Shown: in pieces, positions 1-31,444 of the stretch
Position numbering within the stretch: the stretch's first letter is position 1
Layout of the letters: every line of letters starts with the position of its first letter
IMG/VR virus record: IMGVR_UViG_3300037294_000190
Location: 1 to 33,344 of that record
Direction: 5' to 3' (one strand)
Length of the DNA stretch: 33,344 nt
Source: a virus
The notes under the pieces: generated by a model
Told to the model about the DNA's origin: nothing
What the model saw: only the letters and a program-made list of their open reading frames with translations
Databases searched by the model: none
Position numbers and translations under genes: made by a program

Positions 1-3000
1 ATCAAGATGGGTATGTCGGCGATATTGCTAACGAATTAACCACTACTACTAATGCAATCAAATACGTAAAAGAACTAGCCTATAACGTTGTATTAGGTAA
101 CACAACTTCTACACCTTATCAATCTACTGTAACGCAAAATTTAAGTTTACCAGTTGCTACAGGCACAGAAGCATCTGCAATCAGAACTGATTTTCAAGTT
201 ATCATAGACATATTGGAAAATGGCACTGCTGGCGTAACTGATATTGTAGTTGCAAATGGAATCGATATATTAAATGCAGATGCACAAAAGGCCTACGATT
301 TATTACAAATTAATAAAAGTTTTATTCAAGCAGAAGCAGTTGCTTATGTAGAAAGTACTAAAGAAAGCGGATTTGAATACGATCAAGAAAAATGCCTACG
401 TGATGTAGGATATATGATTGATTCAGTCGCCCACGATACTTTATACGGCGGAAATAGACAGGCGATTCAAAGCGGTGTATTCTATTACGGATTCTCAAAT
501 ACTCAAAGTGCGGTCGAAAACGAACAAGCACAAACTTCAGCAGCGTTTAATAAACTAAAAGAAATTATTCCTCTTATTATTACTAATGTAGAAATTACTC
601 CTACTATTAATAATACAGCAACTCAGATAACAAATTTAACAAGTTCTACTATTGCAGTTGCAGGTATTACTAATAATATTATAAGTTTAATAACTGATAT
701 AATTACAGAAGGACCAGATGTAGCAATTGAAGGATTGCCAATTGGCCAAACACGAACTACTAATATAGATACAGAAGCAGCCGCAACTATACTTCTTGCA
801 AACAGAGACTTTATTAAATCAGAGACTATTGCATGGGTAGACAAATATTACGGAACAGGTTTTGTTTATGATCAAGCCAAATGCTACCGTGATACCGGGT
901 TAATTGTTGATGCTATCGCAACTGACTTATTGTATCCTACTGATGAAAAAAGTCAAACTACTTTTGCTGGATTGCAGTATTGGAACCAAGCAGGGTATAT
1001 TGGAGACATTTCTAGAGAACTTACTACTACAACTAATGCAATTAAGTATGCAAAAACTGTAGCAGCCGAAGTTGTTCAAGGAATTACTACAGGTACAAGA
1101 TACCAAAGCACTGTTACACAAAATGCAGCAAGCACTTTTGCAACTGCTGTTGAAGGAAATATTGTTGCGGCAGATTTTGATGTGATTATTGACATTTTAG
1201 TTGACGGTACTGCCGGTGTAACTGACAAAATCGTTCCAAATGGTGTACAATCTATCGACACTGCAACAATTAATGCATACACATTACTTGTTAACAATAA
1301 AGAATATATTCAAAGCGAAACTATTGCTTATATTGAAGCAACTAAATTTGATTACGACGAAGAAAAATGTTATAGAGATAGTGGTCTAATTGTAGACGCT
1401 ATTGCATTAGATTTATTATACCCAACTGATACTTACAGTCAGTCAACTTTTGCAGGCCTTCAGTACTGGGATCAGAACGGTTACACAGGTAGCATTGCTG
1501 GAGAATTAACAACAACTACTAATGCTATTACTTACGTCAGCGCTCTTGCACAATTAATTGTTCAAAATGATGAAAGCGGCACACGCTACCAAAGTACTGT
1601 TACTCAAAATACAAGTTTAGATGCAGCATCGTCGGCTGCTGCGTTAATAATTGACACTGAGTTTACAGTAATCACTGATATATTAACTAACGGCACTGAT
1701 GGAGTAACGGATACTATTGTTCCTAACAATATTGCGGAAAGCACTGTTACTGATGTTATTAATGCTTACAATTTATTAGTTCTTAACAAAGAATATCTGC
1801 AAGCCGAAGCAGTTGCATATGTAGAAAGCACAAAGACTAGTGAGTTCGAATATGATCAAGAGTTATGTTTCCGTGATATTGGATACATAGTTGACTCAGT
1901 TGCATTTGATTTACTGCACAGCGGAAATAAACAAGCAGTTCAAAGTGGTGTTTACTACTACAGTTTTAATGCCAACAGCACAGCAATTCCTAACGAAATT
2001 CCACAGACTCTGCAGGCATTTAACTTTATTAAAGAAATATCTCAGCGCATTGTAACAAATACAACTGGAACAAATTATCAAAGTACTGTTACTCAAAATA
2101 CTAGTTTAACTGCTGCAACAAGTTTTGAATCAGAAATTTTAGGAAGAGCAATTAATACTATTACTAATATTATTAGTGATGGACCTAGCGTAGTAACTGC
2201 AAAAACTCCTATTAGTTTAGATGCTAGCGGCGATGTAAACAAACTTCGTGCAGCATTGATACTAGAAATCAATAGAGATTATATTCAAGCAGAAACTGTT
2301 GCATTTGTAAATCAAACTCAGCGATTTATATACGATCAAGAGTTATGTTTCCGTGATGTTGGATACATGGTTGACTCAGTTGCGTTTGACTTATTGCATC
2401 CTTTACATGACGGTATACCTAGTAATAGACAGGCAATTCAAAGCGGTGTATACTATTACGGTTTTAGTGATACATCAAGTGCAATTGCAGGAGAAATACC
2501 ACAAACTACTGCGGCGTATAATTTTATTAAAGGATTATTGCCATACGTTGTAACAGGCGAAAATGCAATTCCTCAGCAGCCGTTTATTACACAAACTACA
2601 AGTACATCAGTGGGTACAAGTAATGAAATTTTAGATGTTCAAAATAGTATTGATACTATTGTAAACATTATTAATAACGGTCCTGGAGTTGCAAACGAAA
2701 AAGTACCTGTAAGTTTAACAAAAGACACTAGTACAGATGTATATAATGCATATCAATTGCTGGTTGCTAACAGACAGTTTATACAAGAAGAAACTATTGC
2801 TTATATTAATAATAATTTTAAATTTGGAAGTTATCAAAATATTACTGAACAAGTATTTGATTACGATCTTAGTGGCGGCGAACGAGCATTAACTTCATTG
2901 GAAGAAAAATTTGATATTATTGCTGATATTATTAAGGATGGTGCAGACTCAAGTCCAACAATACGTAAGCCTAGACAGTATGTTGATAGCAACCAAGGTG

Positions 3001-6000
3001 TATTAAATGCTAGAAGATTATTAGAAAAGAATAGAAACTTTATTCAAGAAGAAGTTGTTGCCTATGTTGATAATTTATGGCCTAGCAAGTTTAGTTACGA
3101 TCCTGTTAAATGTAGTCGTGACACAGGATTAATTGTTGATGCACTTGCTCAAGATATATTATTTGACGGCAACACCCAATCGACATTTGCCGGGTTACAG
3201 TATTGGAATCAAGATACTGTACTTTTTCCTAGTGAGCAAACAACAACAACTAATGCTGTTCGTTATCTAAAAGATATTGCAACAAAGGTAATAACAAATA
3301 ACACTAGCGGTTACAGATACTCTACTAGTACACAGATTGAAAATACAAGTACTGCAACAATTGCTGTAATTTCTAATATACAGGCAGGATTTGATCTTAT
3401 AATCGACATCTTAGAAAATGGAACAGCCAGAATTACTGACCGTATTGTTCCGAATAATTTAAATCAAAGTGAAATATTGGCTGTTCGTTCTGCATACGAA
3501 TCATTGCAGTCCAATAAGAGTTCAATACAAACCGAAGTTGTTGAATATATCGATCAAACAAATAATTTTGTTTACGATGAGGCAAAATGTTTTCGTGACA
3601 CTGGGTTAATTGTTGATGCTATTGCATTAGATATGAAGTATCCGACTACTGGCGACAGTCAATCAACATTTGCAGGTTTACAGTATTGGAATCAAGGCGG
3701 ATACACTGGGTCAATTGCTAGTGAATTAACCACTACTACAAATGCAATTAATTATCTAAGCGGTCTTGCACAAAAAGTTATTGTTAATAGTCTAACTGGT
3801 ACTCGTTATCAATCTACAGTTACTCAAACAACTAGTACAAGTGTAGGTACCGCAGCCGAATCTGCAATTATTGGTACTAACTTTACATTTATTACTGATA
3901 TTTTAACAACAGGCACAACAGGAATTACTGATTTAATTGTTCCAAATGGCAGACCAAGTCTAAATGCTAATGTTTCTAATGCATACAATTTGCTAATTGA
4001 AAACAAAGAATATTTACAAGCAGAAGTAGTTGCATATGTAGAAAGCACTAAAGAGGAAGGATTTGAATACAATCAAGATAAATGTTTCCGTGATGTAGGA
4101 TACATGGTAGATAGTGTTGCATTTGATCTAGTACATGGAGGAAATAAACAAAGTATACAAAGTGGTTTTTATTATTACGGATACGATTCAACAAGCACAG
4201 CAATTGTTAACGAAATACCTCAAACAACTGCTGCTTACAATAGAATTAAAGAAATTATACCGTTTATTGTTCAGAACGAAATTGTATCTGTAAGTCAAGG
4301 CAACACAGCAACGCAGGTAACATATATGTTACCTGCTACTATAACACAGGTAGGCGTACTACAAACTAAAATTGATAGAATTACTGAAATAATTAACAAT
4401 GGTCCAAGTGCTGCTCCTGAATTAGAACCAATAAGTTTAACTGCTGATACTGATCCGTTAGTAGATCGTGCATATGATATTTTAGTTGCAAACAGAGATT
4501 TTATTAAAGCAGAAATAGTTGCATATGTTAATCAACAATTTACTGGATTTGAATATGATAGAGAAAAATGTTTCCGTGATGTAGGTTACATGTTAGATTC
4601 TGTAAGTTTTGATCTGTTGTATAGTGGTAACAGGCAGGCTGTGCAAAGTGGTGTTTATTATTACGGATACGATTCAACAAGCACAGCAATACCAAAAGAA
4701 ATTCCTCAAACAACTGCTGCTTACAATTTCATTGAAAGAATTGTGGGAGATATTGTAACTGGTACATTAATAACAACTCCACAACAATATACTGTTGTTC
4801 AAGTTGTTAGCGATGATGTAGCAAGCGAAGATGAAGCACAAATGATTCGTGACAATGTAAACTTTATTAATTCAATTATAGAATTTGGTCCAGATCAAGT
4901 TACGGTTAAGGAACCAATTAGTATTACAGAAACACAAGACGTAAAAATGCGAAATGCTGCATATTTGTTAAATGCTAACAGAGAATTTATTCGTGCAGAA
5001 ACAATTGCATTTATTAATAACACATATCAAACTGGTTTCTTATATGATAAAACTAAGTGCCAACGTGATACTGGATTAATTGTTGATAGCATTGCATTTG
5101 ACTTATTGCACGACGGTGTGACTGAAAGTACATTTGCCGGATTGCAATATTGGAATCAAGATACATATGTTGGGTCAGTAAGAGGCGAAATTACAACAAC
5201 TACAAATTCTATCCGTTACATTAAAGAATTAGTAGCAGATGTAATTGTTAACAATGAAATTAGTTCAACTGTTGGTAATACTGCTACTCAAAATACAAGT
5301 TTACCTGCAACTACCGTTGGTATTGCAACGTTAGTAACAGGCAATGTTGATATTATTTTAAATATTTTAGCAAATGGCACGGCAGGAGTAACAGATATTA
5401 TTGTTCCTGATAGTACTTCTTCTAATAGAGAAGATATTAATCGTGGATATAACTTATTAATGGCAAATAAAGAATTTATCCAAGATGAAGTAATTGCCAG
5501 AATTGATTATGACAACACTGAATTTGATTATGATAGAACAGTTTGCCGCCGAGATATAGGATACATTGTTGATAGTCTAGCATTTGACTTGTTGCACGAA
5601 GGCAATAGACAAAGTGTAACAAGCGGAGTTTACTATTATGGATTTGATGCAGCCGACACCGTAATCGATAATCAAGTTTCTCAAACAACTGCTGCGTATG
5701 ATAGAATTAAAGATATTGTAGGAAGTATTGTTAAAGCAGAAGCAGTTAATCAAACATATCAATATAAAGTTAAACAAGTATTGAGTACGAATACTGCTAC
5801 TGATTCAGAAGTAGTTGTTTTACAAGAAAAAATTGACATCATTACTGACATTATTAACAACGGTCCAGAACAAGCAGGAGCACAAACTCCAATCGATCAT
5901 GTTGCAAGTACAAGTACTTCAGTTATTAATGCATTTGATTTATTAATTGCAAATAAAAACTTTATTAAAGCAGAAGTTGTTGCATATATTGATGCGAAAT

Positions 6001-6100
6001 ATACTGATACTCCTAATTATGACAGAGATAAGTGTTATAGAGATGTAGGCGCTATTATTGATGCAGTAGGTTACGATGTTGCTTATGGCGGTAATTATAA
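1..6100 (+). repeat. Tandem protein-coding repeat array, period about 477-498 nt
   Basis: Twelve complete units are anchored by a CxRDxG motif with spacing of 477-498 nt. There is also one shortened unit between the Cys codons at 2346 and 3111 (765 nt apart) and a partial unit at the left edge. Two core types alternate irregularly. In order they are partial A, B, A, A, B, B, short, A, A, B, B, A, B and a terminal variant. Confidence 0.9.
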
Positions 6101-6503
6101 TTCAGTTAATACAGGTAACGGTTATTTTAATAGAAAAGGTCAGTATCATATTGTTCGATTAGAACAAAACGTTACTGATCCTACATTGTTTATTGATGGT
6201 GCTACTGTAAGATTTTATCAGCAGAGTTATATTTCCGCAAGTGGATATTTGTTTGAGTATGTTGGTGCCGGTACACAGTACGGAGCGTTACCACAAGTTG
6301 GTAAGGCTGATCCTGTACAAGAGAGAGAAGTAGTTCAGTTAAATAATGGTAAGGTGTTCTTTACATCAACAGACCAAAACGGAGACTTTAGAATTGGCCC
6401 AACGCTGGTTATTAGTCAAAGCACTGGTGTGTTGGCAGGTCGTACATTCGAGAAGAGTTTGTATGCTACAATGACACCGTTTATCTTAGTGGTAGGAGCA
6501 TAA
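1..6503 (+). CDS. Giant repeat-built virion/fibre protein, 5' end outside window
   Basis: The reading frame is open from base 3 to the TAA at 6503 (about 2166 residues seen). The repeat pattern is already running at base 3, so the true start lies upstream; a TTG at 213 is internal. The protein is a tandem array of ~162-residue units. Each has a core with Cys-x-Arg-Asp-x-Gly, then either a 'FAGLQYWNQ' (type A) or an 'AVQSGVYYYG' (type B) segment, then a linker. The Cys codons fall at 393, 882, 1368, 1866, 2346, 3111, 3588, 4083, 4569, 5058, 5544 and 6033. The last unit is a variant that leads into a different C-terminal domain with 'GKVFFTSTDQNGDFRIGP', a motif shared with the giant gene at 11550. 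Such proteins are known as large structural proteins of marine T4-like phages (VrlC-like is one label). A fibre or baseplate-attached adhesion role is inferred; no enzyme motif is visible. Confidence 0.85.
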   Translation, partial: QDGYVGDIANELTTTTNAIKYVKELAYNVVLGNTTSTPYQSTVTQNLSLPVATGTEASAIRTDFQVIIDILENGTAGVTDIVVANGIDILNADAQKAYDLLQINKSFIQAEAVAYVESTKESGFEYDQEKCLRDVGYMIDSVAHDTLYGGNRQAIQSGVFYYGFSNTQSAVENEQAQTSAAFNKLKEIIPLIITNVEITPTINNTATQITNLTSSTIAVAGITNNIISLITDIITEGPDVAIEGLPIGQTRTTNIDTEAAATILLANRDFIKSETIAWVDKYYGTGFVYDQAKCYRDTGLIVDAIATDLLYPTDEKSQTTFAGLQYWNQAGYIGDISRELTTTTNAIKYAKTVAAEVVQGITTGTRYQSTVTQNAASTFATAVEGNIVAADFDVIIDILVDGTAGVTDKIVPNGVQSIDTATINAYTLLVNNKEYIQSETIAYIEATKFDYDEEKCYRDSGLIVDAIALDLLYPTDTYSQSTFAGLQYWDQNGYTGSIAGELTTTTNAITYVSALAQLIVQNDESGTRYQSTVTQNTSLDAASSAAALIIDTEFTVITDILTNGTDGVTDTIVPNNIAESTVTDVINAYNLLVLNKEYLQAEAVAYVESTKTSEFEYDQELCFRDIGYIVDSVAFDLLHSGNKQAVQSGVYYYSFNANSTAIPNEIPQTLQAFNFIKEISQRIVTNTTGTNYQSTVTQNTSLTAATSFESEILGRAINTITNIISDGPSVVTAKTPISLDASGDVNKLRAALILEINRDYIQAETVAFVNQTQRFIYDQELCFRDVGYMVDSVAFDLLHPLHDGIPSNRQAIQSGVYYYGFSDTSSAIAGEIPQTTAAYNFIKGLLPYVVTGENAIPQQPFITQTTSTSVGTSNEILDVQNSIDTIVNIINNGPGVANEKVPVSLTKDTSTDVYNAYQLLVANRQFIQEETIAYINNNFKFGSYQNITEQVFDYDLSGGERALTSLEEKFDIIADIIKDGADSSPTIRKPRQYVDSNQGVLNARRLLEKNRNFIQEEVVAYVDNLWPSKFSYDPVKCSRDTGLIVDALAQDILFDGNTQSTFAGLQYWNQDTVLFPSEQTTTTNAVRYLKDIATKVITNNTSGYRYSTSTQIENTSTATIAVISNIQAGFDLIIDILENGTARITDRIVPNNLNQSEILAVRSAYESLQSNKSSIQTEVVEYIDQTNNFVYDEAKCFRDTGLIVDAIALDMKYPTTGDSQSTFAGLQYWNQGGYTGSIASELTTTTNAINYLSGLAQKVIVNSLTGTRYQSTVTQTTSTSVGTAAESAIIGTNFTFITDILTTGTTGITDLIVPNGRPSLNANVSNAYNLLIENKEYLQAEVVAYVESTKEEGFEYNQDKCFRDVGYMVDSVAFDLVHGGNKQSIQSGFYYYGYDSTSTAIVNEIPQTTAAYNRIKEIIPFIVQNEIVSVSQGNTATQVTYMLPATITQVGVLQTKIDRITEIINNGPSAAPELEPISLTADTDPLVDRAYDILVANRDFIKAEIVAYVNQQFTGFEYDREKCFRDVGYMLDSVSFDLLYSGNRQAVQSGVYYYGYDSTSTAIPKEIPQTTAAYNFIERIVGDIVTGTLITTPQQYTVVQVVSDDVASEDEAQMIRDNVNFINSIIEFGPDQVTVKEPISITETQDVKMRNAAYLLNANREFIRAETIAFINNTYQTGFLYDKTKCQRDTGLIVDSIAFDLLHDGVTESTFAGLQYWNQDTYVGSVRGEITTTTNSIRYIKELVADVIVNNEISSTVGNTATQNTSLPATTVGIATLVTGNVDIILNILANGTAGVTDIIVPDSTSSNREDINRGYNLLMANKEFIQDEVIARIDYDNTEFDYDRTVCRRDIGYIVDSLAFDLLHEGNRQSVTSGVYYYGFDAADTVIDNQVSQTTAAYDRIKDIVGSIVKAEAVNQTYQYKVKQVLSTNTATDSEVVVLQEKIDIITDIINNGPEQAGAQTPIDHVASTSTSVINAFDLLIANKNFIKAEVVAYIDAKYTDTPNYDRDKCYRDVGAIIDAVGYDVAYGGNYNSVNTGNGYFNRKGQYHIVRLEQNVTDPTLFIDGATVRFYQQSYISASGYLFEYVGAGTQYGALPQVGKADPVQEREVVQLNNGKVFFTSTDQNGDFRIGPTLVISQSTGVLAGRTFEKSLYATMTPFILVVGA
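4168..4690 (+). repeat. 37-bp identical direct repeats in neighbouring B-type units
   Basis: Bases 4168-4204 and 4654-4690 are identical over 37 nt, and a second identical block of about 24 nt follows shortly after each (encoding PQTTAAYN). The two copies lie one repeat period (486 nt) apart in adjacent type B units, which suggests recent duplication or gene conversion. Confidence 0.8.
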
Positions 6504-8238: not shown

Positions 8239-11200
8239 ATGGCAAACATAAAAGATTTCGTCGTAAAACAAGGCATAGTTGCAGAAGGGACCGCAGCGTC
8301 CAATAACACTGCAACTGGTGCATTACTTGTAGGCGGCGGAGCGGGTATAGGCGGTAACGTCAACATTGGTGGTTATATTAAAAGGCAGGGAGATGTAACT
8401 AGCGATACACACAGTCTAGGTGCGCAATTATCTTTTAGAGATGCGGTATTCACTGATAGTTTAGTAACAGGCAGATCAGCCTGGGGTATTGTAAACTATT
8501 TTGGCAATCCACAATTAGATACAATCAGTGAAGATGCAACATACACTAACGCTACTAACATCTTTATTAAAGGTCCTGCTCAAGCAGTTGCTGGCGGCAA
8601 TTTAACAATTGAAAAGTCTTGGGCATTATATGCTAGTTCAGGTAGTTTTTATATTGGTGAAACAAGTGGCAGTACAAGTACTGCGGCTGGCCAAGCATTA
8701 CAGATAGCAGGCGGTGTTAGTTTTGGCAACGGAATTTACGGCGCAGGTGGCGGAAGTCTATTCGGTTACTACGAAATTGATGGTAGCCAAGTTTTAACAA
8801 AGGCAACACAAAACGTAGGTCTTGCAGAATTTCCAGACGGCATTTTAATATCAACTTCTACGCAAGCAGTTAGCACAGCAACAGGAGCATTAGTTCTTTC
8901 AAACGGCGGCGGCATTGGCGTTGCAGGCAATGTATATGTAGGTGGATACTTAGCAGTATTAACAACTGCAACAATTTTAGGCACAGAAAATGCATCCAGC
9001 ACATCAACTGGAGCGTTAAGACTCGAAGGCGGTCTAGGCATAGGGCAAGATCTGTTTGCACAAAACGGCGTCTTTGTTTCTGGAAATTCAAATACTAGCA
9101 CGGTTGGCGGCAACAGTGTTCAAATTACTAGTGGCGGCGGCCTAGGTGTTAGCGGGTCTGCATTAATTCAAGGTCTAGTATACTTAGAAAACACTACAGA
9201 CTCAGATGCTGTTGACACAGGTGCATTGGTTGTACGAGGCGGTGTTGGAATTGAACAAAATTTAACAGTTAATACTGTTGATATTGTAGGTACAACCTTA
9301 GCAACTGATGAAAGTTCAGGTGCATTAACAGTTGCAGGCGGCGTAGGAATTGCTGGTAATTTAGTAATTGGTGCTACTGACAGTTCTACTGGAACTACTG
9401 CATCAAATGCATTAGTTGTAGCAGGCGGCGGATACTTTGGCGGCGATTTGTCAGTTAAAGGAACAACAGTAATTGAAGGAGACCTATTACTATTAGGTAT
9501 AGGTACACAAGTCACAATTAATTCAACAAATACTTACATTGTTGATCCGTTAGTCGAAATTGGCGGCGGTATAGATGGTTCTATGCTAACTGTTCCAGAT
9601 GTATATGACAAAGGTTTATTAATACATTATCAAAATGCAGCAAGTACAGTAACAGATTGGCGTGCATTTATTGGTCTAGAAAACACTACTGAACGCTTTA
9701 TCTTTAAAACAGATATTGATCCTAGCGTAGAAGGTGAAGATCCCTTTGGCGATTATTATAACAGCGGTACCTGGAGTACATTAGAAGCAGGTAGTTTAGT
9801 TTTAAGAAATGATTTAACAGTTAACGGAACAGCAAATGTTACCGGATCTGCTGAGTTTGAAAATACTGTAACATTTACTAGTGCAGCATTTTCATCGACA
9901 CAAATTTTAGATAATGCGTTACAAGTTCCAAATGGCGGCATTGGCGCAAGATATTTGTACATTGAAGAATCTGGTTTTATTAAAAATGCTGAAATTCTAA
10001 CAACTGGTACAATTAACAATAACATCGGCGGATTGTTTACTAATACTTTCCAGTTTGCTAACTTAACTGAGGCAAACAGTACTGACACCGGCGCAGTAAC
10101 AGTTGGTGGCGGCGTTGGTATTGGTGGTAATTTATATGTTGGCGGCAATCAAGTACTGTACGGAACATTATCTATTACAGATGAAACACAATCTGTAGAC
10201 AGTAGTACAGGAGCATTAACTGTTCTTGGTGGTGTTGGCGTTGGTAAGAATCTAAATGTAGGCGGAACTGTTGCAATTACAGACGCAACTAACAGTACCG
10301 GTACTGATAATGGTGCGTTGACTGTGGCAGGCGGCGCCGGCATTGCAGGTGATGTATATGTCGGCGGCTTTATTGTAGCAACTAACACTGTAACTGTTTA
10401 TCAATTAATTGTCACAAGCGAAGAAGATAGCACAGCAACAGGTAATGGTGCTGTAACTATTGCAGGCGGCATAGGTGTTGGCAAAACTATAAATGCAGAT
10501 AGAATTAATGTTCAAACTGCTAGTATTAACAGCGGAACAAGTTCTACTTCAACTAATACAGGTGATTTAGTAGTTACTGGTGGTGCAGGTATCGGTGAAA
10601 ACTTACATGTAGGAAATAATCTACAAGTTTACTCAACATTAACATCAATAAGCACTAATACAGGTGCATTAGTAGTCGAAGGCGGTGCCGGCATCGGTAA
10701 AGATGTCTACATTGGTGGTAAAATTACTAGAAACGGTGAAGTTACTGTAAGCCAATTAAACTTGGGCGGTGCAGCACTAGCAATTTCGACCTCTACATAT
10801 ATAGACGAACTGTCAAGCGGCACACCTAGCAGTTTAGCAATTAATAGTTTTGGTCGTCCTACAATTGTAGGAACATTAAATCCAACATGGGGCGATGCTT
10901 CTACATTATATATCGATAATGCTCCGCAATTTACAGGTGGAGCCAATGCTACACGCAAGTGGGCCGCATTCGTTAATCAGGGTGCAGTAAAAATTGCAAC
11001 TGGCACAGTTAACAACGGTACTACAAATAGTGGTGCATTACAAGTTGTTGGTGGTGTTGGCGTTGGCGGTTCACTAACCGTTGGTGGAAAAGTTAAAGCA
11101 AACACTGTTGAAGTTGGATCTAACTTAATTAGTTCTCCGGGAATTACAGGTAAGAGCGATGCAACTGCTGCAACTATTGATACATATGTAGGTAACGAAT

Positions 11201-11463
11201 TTACTACAGCAAAATATCTAGTACAAGTTAATGATTTAGGAACACCTAACAAGTTCCATGTTGTAGAATTAATGGTAACATATGATGGCAGTGCTGCAAC
11301 CAGCGGCGTTTATATCAGTCAATACGGTATTATTACAAACACAGGCGAATTGGGCACGTTTGATGTCACTTACAATTTAGGTGATATCAATGTTATCTTT
11401 ACACCAAACTATACTCCAGTAAGTATGAGTATACGAGCGGTGCGATTTGCAATCATAACTTAA
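8239..11463 (+). CDS. Giant GALxVxGG-repeat fibre protein
   Basis: This 1074-residue protein starts at ATG with AAGGA at 8227-8231. About fifteen copies of a ~25-residue repeat (S/T-rich stretch, TGALxVxGGxGIGxNLxVGG) cover most of its length; such glycine-rich beta repeats are typical of elongated trimeric phage fibres. Residues ~424-500 hold a module beginning 'NSTNTYIVDPLVEIGGG' and containing a KGLLIHY...FIGLEN segment, present twice in the next gene. Residues 991-1074 match the C-terminal domain of the upstream gene (VQVND, KFHVVE, QYGIITN). A strong intrinsic terminator sits seven bases past the stop, so this gene probably ends the transcript of the first three giants. The receptor target is unknown. 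Confidence 0.8.
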   Translation: MANIKDFVVKQGIVAEGTAASNNTATGALLVGGGAGIGGNVNIGGYIKRQGDVTSDTHSLGAQLSFRDAVFTDSLVTGRSAWGIVNYFGNPQLDTISEDATYTNATNIFIKGPAQAVAGGNLTIEKSWALYASSGSFYIGETSGSTSTAAGQALQIAGGVSFGNGIYGAGGGSLFGYYEIDGSQVLTKATQNVGLAEFPDGILISTSTQAVSTATGALVLSNGGGIGVAGNVYVGGYLAVLTTATILGTENASSTSTGALRLEGGLGIGQDLFAQNGVFVSGNSNTSTVGGNSVQITSGGGLGVSGSALIQGLVYLENTTDSDAVDTGALVVRGGVGIEQNLTVNTVDIVGTTLATDESSGALTVAGGVGIAGNLVIGATDSSTGTTASNALVVAGGGYFGGDLSVKGTTVIEGDLLLLGIGTQVTINSTNTYIVDPLVEIGGGIDGSMLTVPDVYDKGLLIHYQNAASTVTDWRAFIGLENTTERFIFKTDIDPSVEGEDPFGDYYNSGTWSTLEAGSLVLRNDLTVNGTANVTGSAEFENTVTFTSAAFSSTQILDNALQVPNGGIGARYLYIEESGFIKNAEILTTGTINNNIGGLFTNTFQFANLTEANSTDTGAVTVGGGVGIGGNLYVGGNQVLYGTLSITDETQSVDSSTGALTVLGGVGVGKNLNVGGTVAITDATNSTGTDNGALTVAGGAGIAGDVYVGGFIVATNTVTVYQLIVTSEEDSTATGNGAVTIAGGIGVGKTINADRINVQTASINSGTSSTSTNTGDLVVTGGAGIGENLHVGNNLQVYSTLTSISTNTGALVVEGGAGIGKDVYIGGKITRNGEVTVSQLNLGGAALAISTSTYIDELSSGTPSSLAINSFGRPTIVGTLNPTWGDASTLYIDNAPQFTGGANATRKWAAFVNQGAVKIATGTVNNGTTNSGALQVVGGVGVGGSLTVGGKVKANTVEVGSNLISSPGITGKSDATAATIDTYVGNEFTTAKYLVQVNDLGTPNKFHVVELMVTYDGSAATSGVYISQYGIITNTGELGTFDVTYNLGDINVIFTPNYTPVSMSIRAVRFAIIT

Positions 11464-11549: not shown

Positions 11550-14500
11550 ATGGCACAAGCAGATTTCATCGTTAAAAACGGTGCAGTAATTCTTAATGGG
11601 TTAACTGCCACCTCAACAAGTACAACATCGGGTGCCTTGGTAATTCAAGGCGGCATTGCTACATCAGGGCAATCAACATTTGGTGGCAATTTAAACATTG
11701 TAAACACTACTACCGCAGTATCAGACACTACTGGTGCGTTAACTGTAGTAGGCGGAGTGGGTATTACTGGTGACTTATGGGTCAAAGGAGTAAATCTTAC
11801 TCAAAGTGATCCTCATGTAGTTTATGTTTCCGAGTCAGGCAATGATGCAAACGACGGGTTATTGCCGCAGTCTTCAGTACAAACAATTAAACAAGGTTTA
11901 ATTTTAGCCAGAAATATATATGATACTACTGGTCAGGGTGCAGATGTTAGGTTACACGCAGGTGTGTACGTAGAAGAATTTCCGTTATATGTATCAACAG
12001 GTACTGCTGTTAAAGGAGCAGGACTTCGTCAAGTAACAGTTCGTCCTACTACTGCTACAAATACTTTTACGGGTTTTTTGCTAGACGGCGAAACAACTAT
12101 CAGCGACTTTGCTATTACAAGTTTTTATAAACCTGGTTATGCATTTGCTTATGCTCCTAATGCAAAAATTACAACACGCAGTCCTTACGTTGAGCGTTTT
12201 TCCGTAATTACAAGAGGTTCAAACCCTACTGCTAACGATCCGTATGGATACGATAGCAACGACGCAGGCGGCGGCGCATACTTAGATGGAAGTCAAGTTG
12301 ATAAATCTTCATTAGAAGCAGCATTTTTATTCAACGAAGCCACGTTTATTACTCCTAGTTCTACTGCTATCTACGCAACTAACGGAACTAGAGTTGAATT
12401 ACTAAACGGATTTAGTTACTTCAGCGAAAAAGGTATTCACTTTGAAAGTGGATCAGAAGGTTGGGGCGGAGCAGGTAAAACTAAATTACGTCTCGCTAAT
12501 ACTACAGGCACATTTGCTGTAGGTGATTTCTTATACTACAAAGGTTCTACAGGAACCGTAGTTGCTAGTGGTGAAATTGCTGCTGTAGATTCTGATTATA
12601 TCTACATCGATGGAAAAGCATCTGGATTTATTGAGTCAGCAGACCGTGCTGGAAAAGTTGTTAACGTTTACGGCAACACTGAAATCAGCAGTTTTCAGCG
12701 TAAAATTGGTAACGGATCTGTGCATTTTACAACAGATGGTGATTTATTAGACATTGTTAGTGATGCCGATCTTCAATATGGTACAGGTGCATATACATTA
12801 GAAGCATGGGTATTTTTAGATCAAGGTGGTAGAACACAACAGATCTTTAACAAAGGTACTACTGTAGCCACTGAATTTGGTTTATATATCGACTCTGCTA
12901 ATAAAGTAACTGGTCAACATAGTAGTACATTAATGACAGGTACTAGTGTATTGAGCACAGGCACTTGGTACCACGTTGCCTTATCAAGAGATACTGGAAA
13001 TAATTTATACTTGTTTGTAGACGGAGGATTAGAAGCGACCGATACTTCTACTGCAAATACTACAAACGGTGAAAGTTTAACAATTGGTGGTAAAACTGGA
13101 GTTGCTAGCAACTCAATTAGAGGTTATATTGACGAAGCACGAGTAAGTTCAGTTGCTAGATATACAGCCGGCTTTACTCCGTTAACAATTTCTTTTAATT
13201 CTGACATCAGCACTACTGTTCTAATCCACGGTGATGGTGCAGATACAAGCATTGATATTAAAGATGACGGCCAAGGTTCTCAAAATGTTTACACAACAAC
13301 TGCAACAAGTGAAGATTCAGTAATTGCTAGTGCGCAGGCTATTATTCTTGCAGACTATAGACAATTTGGCGGTGAATTGCGCTCAATTGGTTCTGCAGTC
13401 TGTTACGGCAACTACGGTATATACGCAGATGGTGAAGGTGTTGACCTAAAAGCAATTGCATTTAACATGAGTTATATTGGATCAGGAAAAGATCTATCCA
13501 ATGACGCTACTTTAGCAGTTCAAGCAAATGAAATTATTAGTCTAAATGGTGCTAAGGTATACTATCAAACAGTTGACCATATTGGAGATTTTAGAGTTGG
13601 ACCTGAATTCCGTATTAATCAACGTACAGGTAACGTTGACTTTGGAACTGCTAACTTCCGGTTAGGCCCGTTATCTAGTTTAACAGTTAGTGACGGTGTT
13701 AATGCTGTTGTTGTACAACCTAGTAGCATTTCAGTAGGATCGCTGTTGCTTGGCGGCAATAGAATACAAACTATTAGCGGCAACTTAATTTTAGATCCTA
13801 ATGGAAGTTTAACTACAATTGAAAGTGATTTACAAGTAAATGGCGGCTTAAACTTTACAGGACAATTTTTAGCAACTAGTGTAGCAAACAGTACTAGTAC
13901 TACTACTGGTGCTATTGTCGTTAGTGGCGGCATTGGTCTTGCAAAAGATTTATATGTTGGAGGAAATGCAACTGTTGCTGGAAATTTAATAGTTAAAGGA
14001 TTAACTACTACAGTTAATAGTACTCAAACAAGTATCAGCGATCCTGTATTAGATTTAGGTACTGGAGCAGATAATACTGATATTGAAATTAATGATGGAT
14101 GGGATCGAGGATTATTATTTCATTACAACACATCGCCCACTCAAAGTGTAGCAAGTTATACTAGAAGTTTCTTTGGTATGGACAATGCTTCTGAGGATCT
14201 TGTTTACAAAGTTGGAGTTGCTAACGGAACACTTACTTCATTAGATCCTGACTTCTCTTCATTAGGAAGTTACGGCGGTGCAAAATTTGGTCGTCTATAT
14301 TTAGAATTATTAACTCCTGGGTCTCCTAGTGACGGCGCACTAGTAGTTAAAGGCGGCGGCAGTATTGCCGGTGAGTTGTATGTACAAAATACTCAAGTAG
14401 TTACTACTGGAACTATAAATCAATATGCAGTAACTGAAGCAATTGGCGGAGAAGACATTGATGTAGACGTTAATATAGGAATAGTAACTTTTACAAATAC

Positions 14501-17500
14501 TTCTACTTTACAATCAGTAACTAGTAGAGGAAGTCAAACTGACCAAATTGTCTACTTTACAAATACTACAAATTCATTTAATACTATAACTGGTGCTGTA
14601 GTAATTACAGGCGGACTAGGTGTAGGTCAAGATATACACGCAGAAGACATTTATTCTAACGGTGCGTTAGTTGTTACAGAAGGCACAATTGGTGCATTAG
14701 GTATTACTGCACTATATGCAGGAACTGACACTGCTGTTAGCAGCCAAACAGGTATTGTTTACGTATGGAGCACTTCTACTTTAGAAACAGTAACGTCTAG
14801 GGGAAGTTCTACTAGTCACATTATAACATTTACTAATATTGAAGAATCTACTGCAACAGATAACGGTTCAGTAGTTGTTTCCGGAGGTGTTGGAGTTGGT
14901 GGTAATTTAAATGCAAGTCAAATATTTGCAAATGTTGGATATTTTATCGGTGGCAATTCTTCAGTATCAGAAACTACTGGCGATTTAATTGTAACAGGTG
15001 GCGCTGGTATCGGTGAAAATTTAAACATTGCTGGAATTACAACTGTACTATCCAATCAATCATCTATTGATACATCAACAGGTGCATTGTTAGTAGTAGG
15101 CGGCGTTGGCATTGGTCAAGATCTAAATGTAGAAGGTGAAATTACAAGCAATATCGGACAATTAACTTTGAATGGTATATCATCGTTAATTAATGCAACA
15201 TCAAATTTAGATATTACTGGTGGAAGTAATTTAGGAATTACATCAGTAGGACAACTAACTATCGGTTCTTCTTTAGCAGTGGTATTTACTGATACAAGTG
15301 TAGTATATATTAACGGAACAGTAAATGCAACTAACAGCGGATCAGGAGCATTAGTCGTAGCAGGCGGCGCCGGGTTTGGCGGCAACATTTACGCAGCAAA
15401 TATTTTCTCAAATAACAGCCAAGTAATTACTAGTGCAAACTTAGGTGCGTTTGGTGTAACGTCATTAACTACTGGTTCAGGAATATCAATATCTACGACA
15501 ACTGGCGCAGTAATAATTGAATCAATTGACACATTACAAGATGTAACCAACAGATGGTCAACTACAACAAATATAGTTACTATACAAAATGATACAGCAG
15601 CAAGCAATACTGCAACCGCAGCATTAATTGTTCAGGGAGGCGGCATCGCAAGTGATAGTTTGTATACTAATTTTGCAATTGTTGGAACTAATTTACAAGT
15701 TGACGGTAGCGCACAAATAAATGATGTATCTGATGCAAGCAACGAAACTACAGGAGTATTAACTGTTGCCGGCGGCGTTGGCGTTGCAAAGAGTTTATGG
15801 GCCGCAGCATTGTATGACGACGGCCAGCGTGTTGTAACTAAGATTAATCCTAATTCTGGACCTGGTATTACAATCACTGACGAAATTGGTATTGGAACAG
15901 CAACAAGTTTTACAATTAATAATGCAGGTGTTATTGCTGCTGTTGGTAGTGCGTACATTGGAATAAGTTCAGCAACAGGTATCGTTACAATTACTAACTT
16001 AGGTGTACAAACTCTAACCGCAGGTACAGATACAAGTGTAAGTAGATCAACTGGTACTGTGACAATTTGGAGCACTAGTACATTGCAATCAGTAACTAAT
16101 AGAGGTGCAACAACTGATAACGCAATAAGCATTACTAACACTACAGATGCTAATACTTCCACTGCCGGGGCATTAATTGTTGGCGGTGGCGCCGGAGTTG
16201 CTAAGAATTTAATTGTTGGCGGTAATGCTGCTGTTTACGGCAATCTACAGGTATACGGTAAGCAGACTTATGTAAATTCAACTCAAACTGTAATTACTGA
16301 TCCGGTAATCGGAGTAGGTGCAGGAATAGACAACAGCAATTTAGGTGTTAATGATGGTTTAGATCGTGGTATATTGATGCACTACAATACTACTGCTACT
16401 GAAAACATATTCTACGACAATCATGCCTTCTTAGGTATGGACAATGCTACACAAACGCTTGTGTATAAAACAGATGTTTACCCAGAAGGAGTTCAAGAAT
16501 TTCCTGCACTATTCTCCAACACAGGCTCATTTGGATTAGCACAGTTTGGTGGATTGTCCTTAACAAATAACACAGTTGCTTCAAATACATCAACTGGCGC
16601 TTTAACTGTAGATGGCGGTGTCGGCATTGGTGGAGCATTGTATGTTAAAGATGCAATTTTTGTTAACGGCAATCAAGTTCTCACATCAGGCGGTGGAGGC
16701 GGTAGCGGATATGTAGAAGCATTGTATGCAGGAACAGATACCGCAGTTAGTGCAAATGCAGGTGAAGTTACAATATGGAACACAAGTACGCTTCATTCTG
16801 TTACTGAACGAGGTAATCAAACTGCGTTTAATATAATTATTGGAAATGTAACTACTGCATCAAATGCAACTGAAAATGGTGCATTTAAGGTATCAGGAGA
16901 TACAATTCTAAGTAAGAGCGCATTTATTGTAAACAATGCAATTTTAGGTGCAGAACTTCCTGCAGCATCTGATTCGAATGCAAATTTATTCTTACCATTT
17001 AGAGGAACCCCGGGTACTTATAGAAATTATGTAGAATTACAAGCAGTTAATGCAAACGACGTTTCAAATTTAGATGGCGGCGCATTTATTAAATTTCGTA
17101 CAAGCACAACAGCAGCATACGGTCCGGAAATTGGTGGCGTTAGGCGTGCAAGTGGCGAGGGCGATTTTGTAATTAGAACAGGTAGTAACACACCGCAAGA
17201 TAGAGTCACTGTTAAAGATGACGGCGACGTTGTAATGACTGGCGATTTATCTGCCGGTAGTTTACAAAACACTCCGGTCGGTAGTGTAACATCTAGCACA
17301 GCAAGATTTACAACTCTCGAAGCCAACGGCGCAGTTAAACTTACTAACACTACAGAAGCAACTAGTTCAGTAGACGGCGCAGTAGTTGTTGGCGGCGGCT
17401 TGGCAGTAGGTTCTAACATTGTTGTTGGACCTGGTGCAGAAACAAGAGGAGTTAAAAATGCTAACATTTATGCTAGCGGATCATTCACAACAGCCGGCGA

Positions 17501-17894
17501 CGCCCAAGCAGGTACATATGTTTTACGAAAATCTTTAGGAACTACATCACTTATTGCATTAACAACTGATGAAGGAATAGTAGGAACTACTAATCAAATA
17601 ACTTTGCTTGACAATTCTTCTTACACTTTTAAAGTGTTAGTGACTGCAAGAGCAACTGCTTCGAGCAATGGCGGTGCGTGGGAATTTAACGGAGTTATTA
17701 CTAGAGATACTGGTGCAGGATCGACTAATATGAGAATTGTAAACAAAACTAAAATATGGTCAAGTTTAACTGGGTACGATGTTGAAGTTGTAGCAGACAC
17801 TGCAAATGGGTCTTTGCAAGTTAGTGCAAAAGGCCATGACAGTAATTTTGTTAGATTCGTTGCAAGAGTAGATACTGTAGAAGTAACTACCTAA
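11550..17894 (+). CDS. Giant modular fibre protein with LamG-like domain
   Basis: This 2114-residue protein has a GGAAAGGGA ribosome site about eight bases before its ATG. Two GALxVxGG repeats come first. Residues ~86-240 look like a beta-helix module starting 'VVYVSESGNDANDG' (tailspike or pectate-lyase-like; no catalytic set assigned). Residues ~386-565 resemble a LamG/concanavalin-like jelly roll ('YTLEAWVFLDQ', 'WYHVALSRD', 'IRGYIDEARVS'). Residues ~675-697 carry 'GDFRVGPEFRINQRTG', shared with the first giant gene. Thirteen or so more GALxVxGG repeats follow. They are interspersed with two copies of the 'NSTQT...DP...DRGLLFHY...DNA' module (~818-893, ~1573-1643) and five copies of an AGTDTAVS...TSTLxxVTxRG unit. 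The C-terminal ~130 residues form a separate beta-rich domain. It is probably a long tail-fibre or side-spike subunit with a carbohydrate-binding domain; the target is unknown. Confidence 0.82.
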   Translation: MAQADFIVKNGAVILNGLTATSTSTTSGALVIQGGIATSGQSTFGGNLNIVNTTTAVSDTTGALTVVGGVGITGDLWVKGVNLTQSDPHVVYVSESGNDANDGLLPQSSVQTIKQGLILARNIYDTTGQGADVRLHAGVYVEEFPLYVSTGTAVKGAGLRQVTVRPTTATNTFTGFLLDGETTISDFAITSFYKPGYAFAYAPNAKITTRSPYVERFSVITRGSNPTANDPYGYDSNDAGGGAYLDGSQVDKSSLEAAFLFNEATFITPSSTAIYATNGTRVELLNGFSYFSEKGIHFESGSEGWGGAGKTKLRLANTTGTFAVGDFLYYKGSTGTVVASGEIAAVDSDYIYIDGKASGFIESADRAGKVVNVYGNTEISSFQRKIGNGSVHFTTDGDLLDIVSDADLQYGTGAYTLEAWVFLDQGGRTQQIFNKGTTVATEFGLYIDSANKVTGQHSSTLMTGTSVLSTGTWYHVALSRDTGNNLYLFVDGGLEATDTSTANTTNGESLTIGGKTGVASNSIRGYIDEARVSSVARYTAGFTPLTISFNSDISTTVLIHGDGADTSIDIKDDGQGSQNVYTTTATSEDSVIASAQAIILADYRQFGGELRSIGSAVCYGNYGIYADGEGVDLKAIAFNMSYIGSGKDLSNDATLAVQANEIISLNGAKVYYQTVDHIGDFRVGPEFRINQRTGNVDFGTANFRLGPLSSLTVSDGVNAVVVQPSSISVGSLLLGGNRIQTISGNLILDPNGSLTTIESDLQVNGGLNFTGQFLATSVANSTSTTTGAIVVSGGIGLAKDLYVGGNATVAGNLIVKGLTTTVNSTQTSISDPVLDLGTGADNTDIEINDGWDRGLLFHYNTSPTQSVASYTRSFFGMDNASEDLVYKVGVANGTLTSLDPDFSSLGSYGGAKFGRLYLELLTPGSPSDGALVVKGGGSIAGELYVQNTQVVTTGTINQYAVTEAIGGEDIDVDVNIGIVTFTNTSTLQSVTSRGSQTDQIVYFTNTTNSFNTITGAVVITGGLGVGQDIHAEDIYSNGALVVTEGTIGALGITALYAGTDTAVSSQTGIVYVWSTSTLETVTSRGSSTSHIITFTNIEESTATDNGSVVVSGGVGVGGNLNASQIFANVGYFIGGNSSVSETTGDLIVTGGAGIGENLNIAGITTVLSNQSSIDTSTGALLVVGGVGIGQDLNVEGEITSNIGQLTLNGISSLINATSNLDITGGSNLGITSVGQLTIGSSLAVVFTDTSVVYINGTVNATNSGSGALVVAGGAGFGGNIYAANIFSNNSQVITSANLGAFGVTSLTTGSGISISTTTGAVIIESIDTLQDVTNRWSTTTNIVTIQNDTAASNTATAALIVQGGGIASDSLYTNFAIVGTNLQVDGSAQINDVSDASNETTGVLTVAGGVGVAKSLWAAALYDDGQRVVTKINPNSGPGITITDEIGIGTATSFTINNAGVIAAVGSAYIGISSATGIVTITNLGVQTLTAGTDTSVSRSTGTVTIWSTSTLQSVTNRGATTDNAISITNTTDANTSTAGALIVGGGAGVAKNLIVGGNAAVYGNLQVYGKQTYVNSTQTVITDPVIGVGAGIDNSNLGVNDGLDRGILMHYNTTATENIFYDNHAFLGMDNATQTLVYKTDVYPEGVQEFPALFSNTGSFGLAQFGGLSLTNNTVASNTSTGALTVDGGVGIGGALYVKDAIFVNGNQVLTSGGGGGSGYVEALYAGTDTAVSANAGEVTIWNTSTLHSVTERGNQTAFNIIIGNVTTASNATENGAFKVSGDTILSKSAFIVNNAILGAELPAASDSNANLFLPFRGTPGTYRNYVELQAVNANDVSNLDGGAFIKFRTSTTAAYGPEIGGVRRASGEGDFVIRTGSNTPQDRVTVKDDGDVVMTGDLSAGSLQNTPVGSVTSSTARFTTLEANGAVKLTNTTEATSSVDGAVVVGGGLAVGSNIVVGPGAETRGVKNANIYASGSFTTAGDAQAGTYVLRKSLGTTSLIALTTDEGIVGTTNQITLLDNSSYTFKVLVTARATASSNGGAWEFNGVITRDTGAGSTNMRIVNKTKIWSSLTGYDVEVVADTANGSLQVSAKGHDSNFVRFVARVDTVEVTT

Positions 17895-17932: not shown

Positions 17933-20900
17933 ATGGCAATAAATTTTGATACCAACACACCAGGCAGCGTAACGCTTAAATCGCCGTCAACGGGCACTGT
18001 TACCTTAACATTACCTGATACTGCTAATACCAGCGGTTGGCAACTAGTATTAGCAGATAACACAGGCACATTAGAATTTGTGCCTCCTGGCACCGGCGCA
18101 AGCGGCGTAGCAGGTGTAGACGGTGCTACCGGTGCTACTGGTCCTATTGGTGCAAGCGGAGCAACTGGCGCTACTGGCCCAGTGGGCGCAAGCGGCGCAG
18201 CAGGAGCAAACGGATCTACCGGTGCTACAGGTCCTATTGGTTCAACTGGGTTAAGCGGTACAGTAGGTAACGCAGGCTCAACCGGTGCTACAGGATTTAC
18301 TGGTGCTACAGGAGCAACCGGTGCTACAGGATTTACTGGTGCAACAGGCGGCATTGGTGCTACGGGCGCTGCAGGCGGCGCAGGTTCAGCAGGAGCAACA
18401 GGTGCTAGCGGATTGGGGTACGATGTTACATCTACAACTAGTCATCCAACAGCAGTAGGTACTAGAACTTTTACTGTTAACAAAGCAAATGCTTATGTAA
18501 TTGGCGGCCGAGTACAAATTACTTCTACAGCAGTTCCTACAAACTATATTCAAGGTACTGTTACGGGTATTGTGGGATTAAACATAACTGTTAGTGTAGA
18601 TTCAGTAGCAGGTTTTCCGGGCCAAACTTACAGTTCTTGGAAATTTTCAGTTGCCGGCCTAAACGGAACAACAGGCGCTACTGGGCAAACAGGTGCATTC
18701 GGATCAACAGGTGCAACTGGTCCGGGCGGTAATACAGGTAATGACGGTGCTACTGGTGCTACCGGTATTCAGGGTAACCAAGGATCAACAGGTGCTACAG
18801 GTCCTCAGGGAGCAAGCGGCTCAGCCGGTGGCGCAGGAAACCAAGGTTCGACAGGAGCAACTGGTTATACTGGAACTACAGGTGCTACTGGTGCAACTGG
18901 TTTACAGGGAACAACCGGTGCTACAGGACCGAGCGGAGTCGGCGGCACTACGGGCGCAACTGGTTTTAATGGATCAACCGGTGCTACAGGTCCTAGAGGA
19001 GCAGGAACATGGACTCCTATTTTAGGAACAGGAGTATCATCTACTGATTATACAGTGTTTACAAAAACTGGTGGATCAAACGGTGCTTGGGATGTTCATG
19101 TATATTCAGCAGAAGGATTTGTAAGAGGTGCCGCAGTTGCAGCAAGAGCAGGCGGGACTGCTACTTATCGTGTGATGTTTGGTTTAAACAGTGATCCTGC
19201 TGCAAATGCAAGTTTCTCTTCAATTGATTATTCATACTACATGAATAACGGTTCTGTTGCAATTTATGAAAGCGGAGCAAGTGTAGCAGGTAGTTGGGGA
19301 ACATATACTACTTCAACAGAATTTCAAATTACTTACGATGGATATTTTGTAAGGTATTACAAAGACGGAGTAATGCAGAGAGAAGTTTCCCGTATAATGG
19401 GAACTGCATTATATTTTGATAGTTCGTTTAACTATACAAATAATTCATTAACTAATGTGTCATTTGGTATGGCTGGCGAGTTAGGCCCTGAAGGTGCTGC
19501 TGGTGCAGGTATTGGTGCTGGCGGAGCAAACCAAGTTATCTATAAAGATAGTGGAAACTTATTTGCTGGTAGTAATAATTTAACATTTAATGGTTCAAAT
19601 TTAAATATCGGTGGCGCATTACAGTTTGACGGTAAAATAAACTGGGATAGTACTACTGGTACCACGCAAAAAGGTTCTCCAACTATTGCGTTTCACAGTG
19701 TTCGAAGCGGACTAAAACATCCCAGTTACTTGGACGAAAACTTCTTAAGCGGAAGTAACAACATCAATGTTTACAATAACTCTGGTGGTAGTAATGTAAC
19801 TATTACTCGAACAGCAAATAACTCAACTATTAATGCTCCTACTACTAGCGGATATGTTTTAACAATTAATCATACAGGAACTGTTGCAAGTCCTGGGTTT
19901 GGTGGTTTTTACTTTGCCGTAGGTACTAGAGCCAATGCAATTTTAGTTTCAACTTTTACAGCGAAATTACCAACAGGCAGAACAATTAACTGGGGTTCTA
20001 ATGCCATCGGTACTAACGGAACAAGTTACTGGTTAACTAATAATACAGGCACAGGCAAGTGGGAAGAATATTCTTATGTTGTTATATGTGGCAATAGTGG
20101 TAGTTTTAGTAGTACTCACTTTTTCTATGTAACTGGCGGTGCAGCACCTAGTGCAGGAGCACCATTAACTTGGTATTTGGCAAGCAGTGCAATTTATGAT
20201 GTAACTGATCAAAGAAGCGATGTACTTTATCTAGATCGTGTCGGCAGCACCCCTAACATCAAAGGATACGGTGAAGGACAGATCATTATTGATGGATCTA
20301 CTACTGGCAAGGGTGTTTATCTAAATCATTATGTAAATGGCAACGTCTATGCTGCAAGTGGCGGCGGCAAACTAGCAGTAGGTGGTGGTACTGGTCCGAC
20401 GTATACATTAGATGTTTACGGTACAGGTGCAGTTAGAGATTACTTCCGTATTACCAATGCTGGTGGCGCACAGAAACTGTTAATGGGTAACCAAGATAGC
20501 AGCGGCACTAATAATCCTAATATTATTACAGCGGCTAACGGTACGCTGTCATTTGGAACAGGAAACACTTGGGCTACTAGTGGCGGCACTGTTAGTAATT
20601 TTGCAACTTTTGCAAGTGCAGGAGCAACAATTGTAGCAGGATCAGGTACAACACCTGCTCTAAAAATTAACCCAGGCGGAAACAGTTGGAGTGAAGGTAT
20701 TCGAATTAATCCTAGCCCAGGTGGTTGGTCCGGACTATATCTCCCTTCTACAGCAGACGTTACCGGCGGCACATGGTTAATAGGTAAAGCAGGCGGACTT
20801 GCCAACCAGTTCATCTTAATGAAGAACGGATTTACTGGATCTGTAGCAGTACGCTCAGATGCTGCCTTTGACGTAAGTTCGACTACAGGTAGATTTACAT

Positions 20901-30792: not shown

Positions 30793-31444
30793 GATCATTG
30801 GAGTGTGTGGGTTTATTGGTTCTGGTAAAGATACTGTAGCAGATTATCTTACTAATATACATGAATTTCGAAGAGAATCGTTTGCAAATTCTCTCAAAGA
30901 TGCAGTAGCATCAGTATTTGGATGGGACCGAACTATGCTAGAAGGCCGCACTAAACATGCTCGTCAGTGGCGAGAACAAGTAGACCCGTGGTGGGCAGAA
31001 CGACTAGCAATGCCTCATCTAACACCACGCTGGATCTTACAATACTGGGGTACAGAAGTTTGTCGTAAAAGTTTCCACGATGATATATGGATCGCCAGCC
31101 TCGAAAATAAACTACGTAATAGCAAAGATGATATTGTTATTAGTGATTGCCGTTTTCCGAACGAAATTAAAAGTATTCGAAATTCAGGTGGTATTGTAGT
31201 TCGTGTAAAGCGTGGAGATGATCCCGAATGGTATCGAGATGCAGCAGATATGAATGCCGGAGATCAATGCATGAATTGGGCATTAGCAACTAGTCGAATA
31301 AAAAAGTTAAGTATTCATGCTAGCGAAACTGCATGGGTAGGAACTAAGTTTGATGCCGTATTGGATAATAACGGAACAATTGACGATTTGTATGAACAAG
31401 TTAAAAATCTGGTGTTAGATCCCCCCGGCGCCACGTCTGCTTGA
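30791..31444 (+). CDS. Deoxynucleoside monophosphate kinase, T4 gp1-like
   Basis: This 217-residue P-loop kinase resembles T4 gene 1 product, which phosphorylates dNMPs to dNDPs for phage DNA synthesis in the cytoplasm. The Walker A loop is GFIGSGKDT (residues 7-15, Lys13). Further family-like features are 'RWILQYWGTEVCR', SDCRFPNEI at 118-126 (LID/substrate region) and IHASET near residue 176. Length is near the T4 enzyme (about 241). Its ATG is embedded in a perfect hairpin and a probable late promoter lies just upstream. A nucleotide-metabolism gene inside a neck/tail gene cluster is a known marine-phage habit but unlike T4 placement of late structural genes. The last 14 codons are read on the opposite strand by the HNH gene. 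Confidence 0.88.
   Translation: MIIGVCGFIGSGKDTVADYLTNIHEFRRESFANSLKDAVASVFGWDRTMLEGRTKHARQWREQVDPWWAERLAMPHLTPRWILQYWGTEVCRKSFHDDIWIASLENKLRNSKDDIVISDCRFPNEIKSIRNSGGIVVRVKRGDDPEWYRDAADMNAGDQCMNWALATSRIKKLSIHASETAWVGTKFDAVLDNNGTIDDLYEQVKNLVLDPPGATSA

Follow-up and report, generated by a model that had tools for sequence, protein, structure and literature searches.

Recursive insertion of paired half-domains as the probable source of a nested repeat order in a giant, putatively tail-associated viral protein

Domain insertion is common, and the usual picture of a repeat protein is a linear chain whose sequence neighbours also lie next to each other in space. In SI3 of the cyanobacterial RNA polymerase (rpoC2), hybrid-motif/HABAS domains have been inserted recursively, through six levels and in A1-B1-C-B2-A2 orders, and a single enzyme holds eight to ten hybrid-motif domains (PMC13114784). 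These recursive insertions appear to be the closest known analogue of the protein considered here, a giant repeat protein encoded at the start of a 33,344-nucleotide stretch of viral DNA (IMG/VR record IMGVR_UViG_3300037294_000190, positions 1 to 33,344), the whole of which we refer to as the window. We think it very probable that the two repeat types of this protein, A and B, are complementary halves of one domain, and that recursive insertion of A-B pairs gives a balanced-bracket order which predicts contacts between distant repeats. As in SI3, copies of the same domain interrupt each other in the chain. Unlike the hybrid-motif domains, which are all-beta, the phage module would be a two-part helical pair (A plus B) with several insertion sites; the phage arrays, moreover, hold up to nine bracket pairs, their bracket strings vary among relatives, and they would form part of a viral tail component. 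We found no description of an A/B bracket order in the open-licence literature.

Parts of the protein fall within described families. Profiles of PHROGs 4527, 5342, 701 and 3442 match over the repeats and the C-terminal domain (E values of 1.3e-96, 6.3e-83, 5.6e-59 and 6.6e-48, respectively), and the N-terminal 870 residues of the full-length gene match tail fibre PHROGs (E value of 1.1e-39). The fibre parts at the two ends thus match families of T4-like cyanophages that are described as short tail fiber (4527), tail fiber (5342 and 17885) and virion structural protein (701). The descriptions of these families mention neither a bracket order nor pairing of A with B nor nested insertions, and phrog_17885, at 1,002 positions, is too short to hold arrays of the size seen in the window.

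Order, typing and interruption of the repeats

The first open reading frame (ORF) of the window (positions 3-6503, plus strand; 2166 residues) is open at its 5' end, where the window starts, and encodes an array of units of ~160 residues, each beginning with Y[DN]xxKCxRD. Cutting the ORF at this motif gave the order A (partial), B, A, A, B, B, short, A, A, B, B, A, B, followed by a terminal unit, which reproduces exactly the repeat order given in a first-pass annotation of this DNA. Two other contigs (L008 and L009) bear the same gene with a complete 5' end. In L008 (9065-18310) it encodes 3081 residues from the first ATG, and 2164 of the 2166 residues encoded in the window are identical; the window therefore covers the 3' two-thirds of the gene. 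For typing, each unit was divided into a first half (helix 1, core, helix 2) and a second half (helix 3, linker, helix 4), and half-unit hidden Markov models (HMMs), designated a1, a2, b1, b2, c1, c2 and t1, were built from ten proteins. The short unit, which the first-pass annotation had placed correctly, is no degenerate A or B unit; it is the second half of a C-type domain, the first half of which lies upstream of the window start. The layout is thus the first half of the C-type domain, [ABAABB], the second half of the C-type domain, AABBAB and the terminal unit, and the features that lie in the window are as follows.

3..377, plus strand: A unit, cut at its 5' end by the window; bracket partner of 378-866
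378..866, plus strand: B unit, closing pair 1
867..1352, plus strand: A unit, outer A of a nested pair; partner of 2331-2861
1353..1850, plus strand: A unit, inner A; partner of 1851-2330
1851..2330, plus strand: B unit, inner B
2331..2861, plus strand: B unit, outer B; a longer spacer (GSYQNITEQVFD) at its end leads into the resumed host half-domain
2862..3095, plus strand: "short" unit, c2 (helix 3, linker, helix 4) of the C-type host domain
3096..3572, plus strand: A unit, outer A; partner of 4554-5042; part of the AABB model
3573..4067, plus strand: A unit, inner A; partner of 4068-4553; part of the AABB model
4068..4553, plus strand: B unit, inner B; part of the AABB model
4554..5042, plus strand: B unit, outer B; part of the AABB model; in its L012 equivalent, an A-B pair has been inserted to separate core from linker
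5043..5528, plus strand: A unit of a simple pair; modelled with 5529..6017
5529..6017, plus strand: B unit of a simple pair; modelled with 5043..5528
6018..6503, plus strand: terminal T unit, its helix 1 bearing CxRD, and the conserved fibre domain at the C terminus (SASGYLFEYVGAG...FILVVGA), ending in the stop codon

When A is read as an opening and B as a closing bracket, both runs in the window protein are balanced, ABAABB being ()(()) and AABBAB being (())(). Other balanced strings are AABAABABBB, AAABBABB, AAABBBAABBAB, ABAABABBAABBAB and AABABB. Among the 87 non-redundant proteins whose arrays were read as halves, 56 of the 61 complete ones are balanced by automatic labelling, and the totals are equal (215 A and 215 B). 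Permutation within strings would leave 4.9 of the 26 distinct strings balanced, and 23 are observed, a figure which serves as description only because the strings are related. Five proteins failed to parse. Three of these reflect labelling problems or a split unit (in L040 an AB pair inserted in the core loop of an A unit splits a1, and in L035 and L156 C-like units were scored as B), one (L023) is too divergent, and one (L076) is real. The first-pass annotation had regarded the A and B units as irregularly ordered and had proposed that a core plus its downstream linker is shuffled as a cassette. Unit order does vary between relatives, but it varies within the balanced-bracket rule; freely shuffled cassettes would give unbalanced strings, and as these are almost never seen, shuffling is unsupported.

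What did stand was the observation that core and linker types agree. In the window, each of the six A cores leads into an A linker and each of the six B cores into a B linker (12 of 12), and every A and B half scores well above the other type with the half-unit HMMs. The contiguous combinations found in 82 non-redundant related proteins, encoded on viral contigs, were a1a2 (261), b1b2 (255), a1b2 (0) and b1a2 (1); the linkage is therefore kept in 516 of 517 contiguous units, and no A core carries a B linker. Very divergent relatives (L020, L022-L024 and L025) were left unclassified in this typing. The core-linker rule is thus real and general. The type signature is not limited to core and linker: the helix that precedes the core reads CxRDTGL in A but CxRDVGY in B, and the typed unit is therefore the whole ~160-residue repeat. 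Congruence of cores and linkers, which the cassette proposal implied, appeared to be poor: within-type distances were only weakly correlated inside proteins, with a mean r of 0.33 for A and 0.05 for B.

Nor do core and linker always stay together, since whole A-B pairs stand between a core and its own linker in 12 relatives. There are 14 such interruptions, each of which encloses whole pairs where the contig is complete. They take the form b1[AB]b2 in L012, L141 and L052, b1[AABB]b2 in L028, a1[AB]a2 in L145, L068, L065 and L042, and a1[BA]a2 in L076; in L145, L068 and L065 the interrupted A unit is accompanied by b1[AB]b2, the case in L042 extends to the contig end, and in L034 an A unit opens within a1 and the contig ends before it closes. 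At the insertion site of L012, the B unit is intact in the relative L010. Similarly, the halves of the C-type domain are contiguous in L014, separated by AB in L010 and L012, and separated by ABAABB in the window's gene. From these uninterrupted and interrupted sites, it follows that relatives differ by whole bracketed blocks. The unit of evolution is the A..B pair and not the core-linker cassette. The pair in the A core loop of L040 (4460-16357; residues about 3180-3560) lies after AGIQYWNQ and before TGYVGAIASEITTTT, and marks a further insertion site.

Predicted structure and coevolution of the pairs

AlphaFold2 modelled the AB pair at 5043-6017 with a predicted local distance difference test (pLDDT) score of 95.7 and a predicted template modelling (pTM) score of 0.92 (92 aligned pairs), and the model indicates that A and B form one rigid body. 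Each unit has four long predicted helices, and the core holds a short helix and a strand. For the AABB block at 3096-5042 (36 sequences), the scores were 89.3 and 0.64, respectively; this model is compatible with two rigid bodies and is not decisive. Foldseek gave no PDB match at an E value of ≤0.001 for either the AB or the AABB model, and the pair may therefore be a new fold. When the AABB model was searched against viral models, the only matches were tail proteins of cyanophages and uncultured Caudovirales. A similarity to intermedilysin (PDB search, E value of 0.001) was judged to be due to chance, the alignment being rich in Ser, Thr and Asn and about 80 residues long.

Mean-field couplings were derived from 176 adjacent AB pairs (effective number of sequences [Meff], 160). 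The top couplings between A and B had z scores of 17.4, 15.2, 12.9, 9.1 and 8.6, whereas shuffled B partners gave at most 5.6. Helix 1 of A couples antiparallel to helix 4 of B (position pairs 3-317, 7-309 and 19-298) and helix 4 of A to helix 1 of B (140-180 and 136-180), with i+j at 316-320 for both helix pairs, and the core-core couplings have an offset near 162. The linker and helix 3 of A couple to the B core (101-191, 119-192 and 116-196), and those of B couple to the A core together with helix 1 of A (284-19, 267-29 and 263-17). A two-fold mirror was present for 17 of the 40 top pairs, with 6.3 expected at random. Taken together, the couplings indicate that AB is a closed pseudo-dimer with its first and last helices packed together. 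In such a pseudo-dimer core and linker types would be linked because a core and its linker are parts of one half-domain and both face the partner, the linker lying against the partner's core.

Partner choice was scored with couplings whose training set was limited to isolated pairs, free of nesting, from protein clusters other than the one scored. Of the 37 nested blocks, 30 favoured bracket over first-with-first pairing, as did the averages of all 7 clusters; a looser training set that included nested inner pairs gave 36 of 37 and was replaced by the isolated pairs. A separate test scored contacts at 30 positions that had been chosen on isolated pairs. Here, outer bracket partners, which lie ~320 residues apart, had a mean z of 0.59 (shuffled, -0.06; standard deviation, 0.19) and inner bracket partners a mean z of 1.00, compared with 0.06 and 0.28 for wrong partners and -0.02 for directly adjacent B-A neighbours. 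These values point to pairing, and not adjacency, as the carrier of the coupling signal. Distances between A units and between B units within proteins also agreed better under bracket pairing (mean r of 0.32, versus 0.05 for first-with-first pairing; 18 of 24 proteins). The coevolution of outer partners supports the view that interrupted halves fold as one domain.

Proposed recursive pair insertion and its rivals

We propose that A and B together make up one helical domain of ~325 residues with approximate two-fold symmetry, in which helix 1 of A would lie antiparallel on helix 4 of B and helix 4 of A on helix 1 of B, with the cores in contact at the two-fold axis and each linker touching the partner's core. 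Such a domain would close on itself, require one A and one B and no more, and have its two ends next to each other, and could therefore be inserted into loops. If the chain ends are indeed adjacent, a pair could enter surface loops of another pair, or of a host domain, without disturbing it; pairs would insert at the A|B border, in the loop joining core to linker in either unit, in the corresponding loop of the C-type host domain and, at least once, in the A core loop. Repeated insertion (and loss) of pairs would then give rise to balanced-bracket strings, while unbalanced recombination products would leave an unpaired half and be removed by selection. The assembled array may be a branched, tree-like scaffold carried on a tail fibre or baseplate protein, which presumably serves as an adhesin that differs in size and branching from phage to phage and may act through reach, avidity, shielding or specificity. 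One speculative and rather doubtful extension is that each bracket string encodes a tree which folding reads out, in the manner of a context-free code, as a branched three-dimensional scaffold, and that phages alter the shape, reach and perhaps host specificity of their fibres by inserting or deleting whole bracketed pairs.

Several points weigh against this proposal. The protein of L076 (8132-11698), the only real exception to the bracket order, has B first and reads b1 b2 a1 [b1 b2 a1 a2] a2. The proteins are related, so the counts above are not independent, and it was the window family that supplied the seeds of the half-unit classes. The pTM of the AABB model alone is no demonstration of contact between the outer pair, and contacts are read from couplings, the adjacency of chain ends and the shape of the array being putative. 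Finally, the 37 nested blocks represent seven clusters, one of which holds 21, and the two AABB blocks of the window protein itself are split, one being for bracket pairing (+100) and one not (-36).

The alternatives are harder to reconcile with the data. Were a core and its downstream linker a shuffled cassette, and the order a free strain-specific code, the near-perfect agreement of types in contiguous units would be expected; however, this is highly improbable given that b1[AB]b2 and a1[AB]a2 contradict it, that the order is confined to balanced strings, that within-type core and linker distances hardly correlate, and that the type signature extends upstream of the core. Duplication or insertion of AB units might also have produced nesting as a mere historical by-product, with A and B having no structural pairing across an inserted block, and AB inserted at A|B or B|A borders would in fact yield balanced strings in this way. 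We consider this unlikely, as coevolution persists between bracket partners on either side of an inserted pair but is absent between adjacent B-A neighbours, and couplings learned elsewhere favour bracket pairing; unequal crossing-over between A copies, moreover, should yield unbalanced strings, which are not seen.

Stacking of units in runs with first-with-first pairing, such as a ladder of A units running parallel to one of B units, would be permitted by AABB and AAABBB alone, but it is barely plausible in view of the strings AABABB and AABAABABBB, its defeat by bracket pairing in most nested blocks and first-with-first couplings that are near null. Repeats are difficult to assemble from short reads, and the close relatives are all metagenome contigs, so that the arrays could conceivably be assembly artefacts. 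We give this next to no credence, because one order is common to the window, L008 and L009, and another to L010, L011 and L013, which come from separate metagenomes, and L015-L017 likewise share an order; the units, furthermore, are only about 70% identical in DNA, and the reading frames stay open for 2,000-4,000 codons. Recursive insertion of A-B pairs, if correct, would supply a nesting rule that states which distant repeats touch and that can be checked from sequence alone. It would account for giant tail genes that run to 2,000-4,000 codons and are difficult to annotate, correct the idea of simple cassette shuffling in such arrays and, in one insertable pair, offer a route to building branched protein scaffolds.

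Conserved cysteine, relatives and neighbouring genes

An almost invariant single Cys opens helix 1 of the units, within YDxxKCxRD, throughout the array at 3-6503. The C-x-R-D motif is present in 272 of 273 a1, 270 of 277 b1 and 234 of 245 c1 units (776 of 795 overall), as well as in all 64 t1 units, and the A and B halves are otherwise nearly free of Cys, 542 of their 620 Cys residues being that of C-x-R-D. The KCxRDxGY of helix 1 resembles the phycocyanin sequence KCARDIGYY, the residues of which hold bilin. PF00502 (Phycobilisome protein) was the Pfam family matched most often (18 of 92 pairs; best E value, 6.7e-5); the best single segments, which match co-linearly, reached 12-18 bits and stay below the curated cut-off of 22.2 bits. 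hhalign aligned about 25 columns, and reversed sequences gave no comparable matches to phycocyanin profiles. However, the globin-like phycobiliprotein fold was not matched by the model with a pLDDT of 95.7 (best phycobiliprotein hit in Foldseek, phycoerythrin; E value, 0.96; TM score, 0.29). psbA occurs in only 1 of 49 records, and 3 of the 49 have a bilin reductase. Homology to phycobiliproteins and a possible binding of bilin were followed through Pfam, hhalign, cyanobacterial phycocyanin genes, Foldseek and bilin-gene searches; because of the fold mismatch, the likeness is kept as a lead only, an unexplained similarity that we do not adopt. Separately, three large contigs (G029, G032 and G039, those of L070, L084 and L119; 230-328 kb) carry arrays together with a ferredoxin-dependent bilin reductase (PF05996) and no psbA.

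The isolate relatives are cyanophages (S-H9-1, S-WAM2, S-PM2, DSL-LC03 and ACG-2014d; 20-36% identity), those of the AB pair without exception, and by its gene content the window is the structural region of a T4-like virus. The repeat gene lies beside baseplate and fibre genes: 11550-17894 matches a baseplate wedge subunit, 17933-24571 matches collagen and Peptidase_S74, and 27339-28769 matches the T4 gp15 tail sheath stabiliser. A deoxynucleoside monophosphate (dNMP) kinase gene also lies downstream of the repeat protein. The neighbouring giant genes at 8239-11463 and 11550-17894 contain many repeats of the type STSTGALVVxGGxGIGxxLxVGG, and the fibre protein encoded at 17933-24571 has collagen-like GXY repeats near its start, several copies of the module NLTNLSQLTNGPGF and a C-terminal S74 intramolecular chaperone. 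On the minus strand at 31401-31733, a small ORF rich in Cys, which on visual inspection resembles an HNH-type endonuclease, overlaps the dNMP kinase gene at its end. L008 also carries, upstream of the window's gene and separated from it by a 128-residue ORF, another giant gene of like architecture (L008:2026-8628; 2200 residues; C C A B C[beta region]C A B T), and upstream paralogues are also found in L010, L012, L014, L028, L037 and L141.

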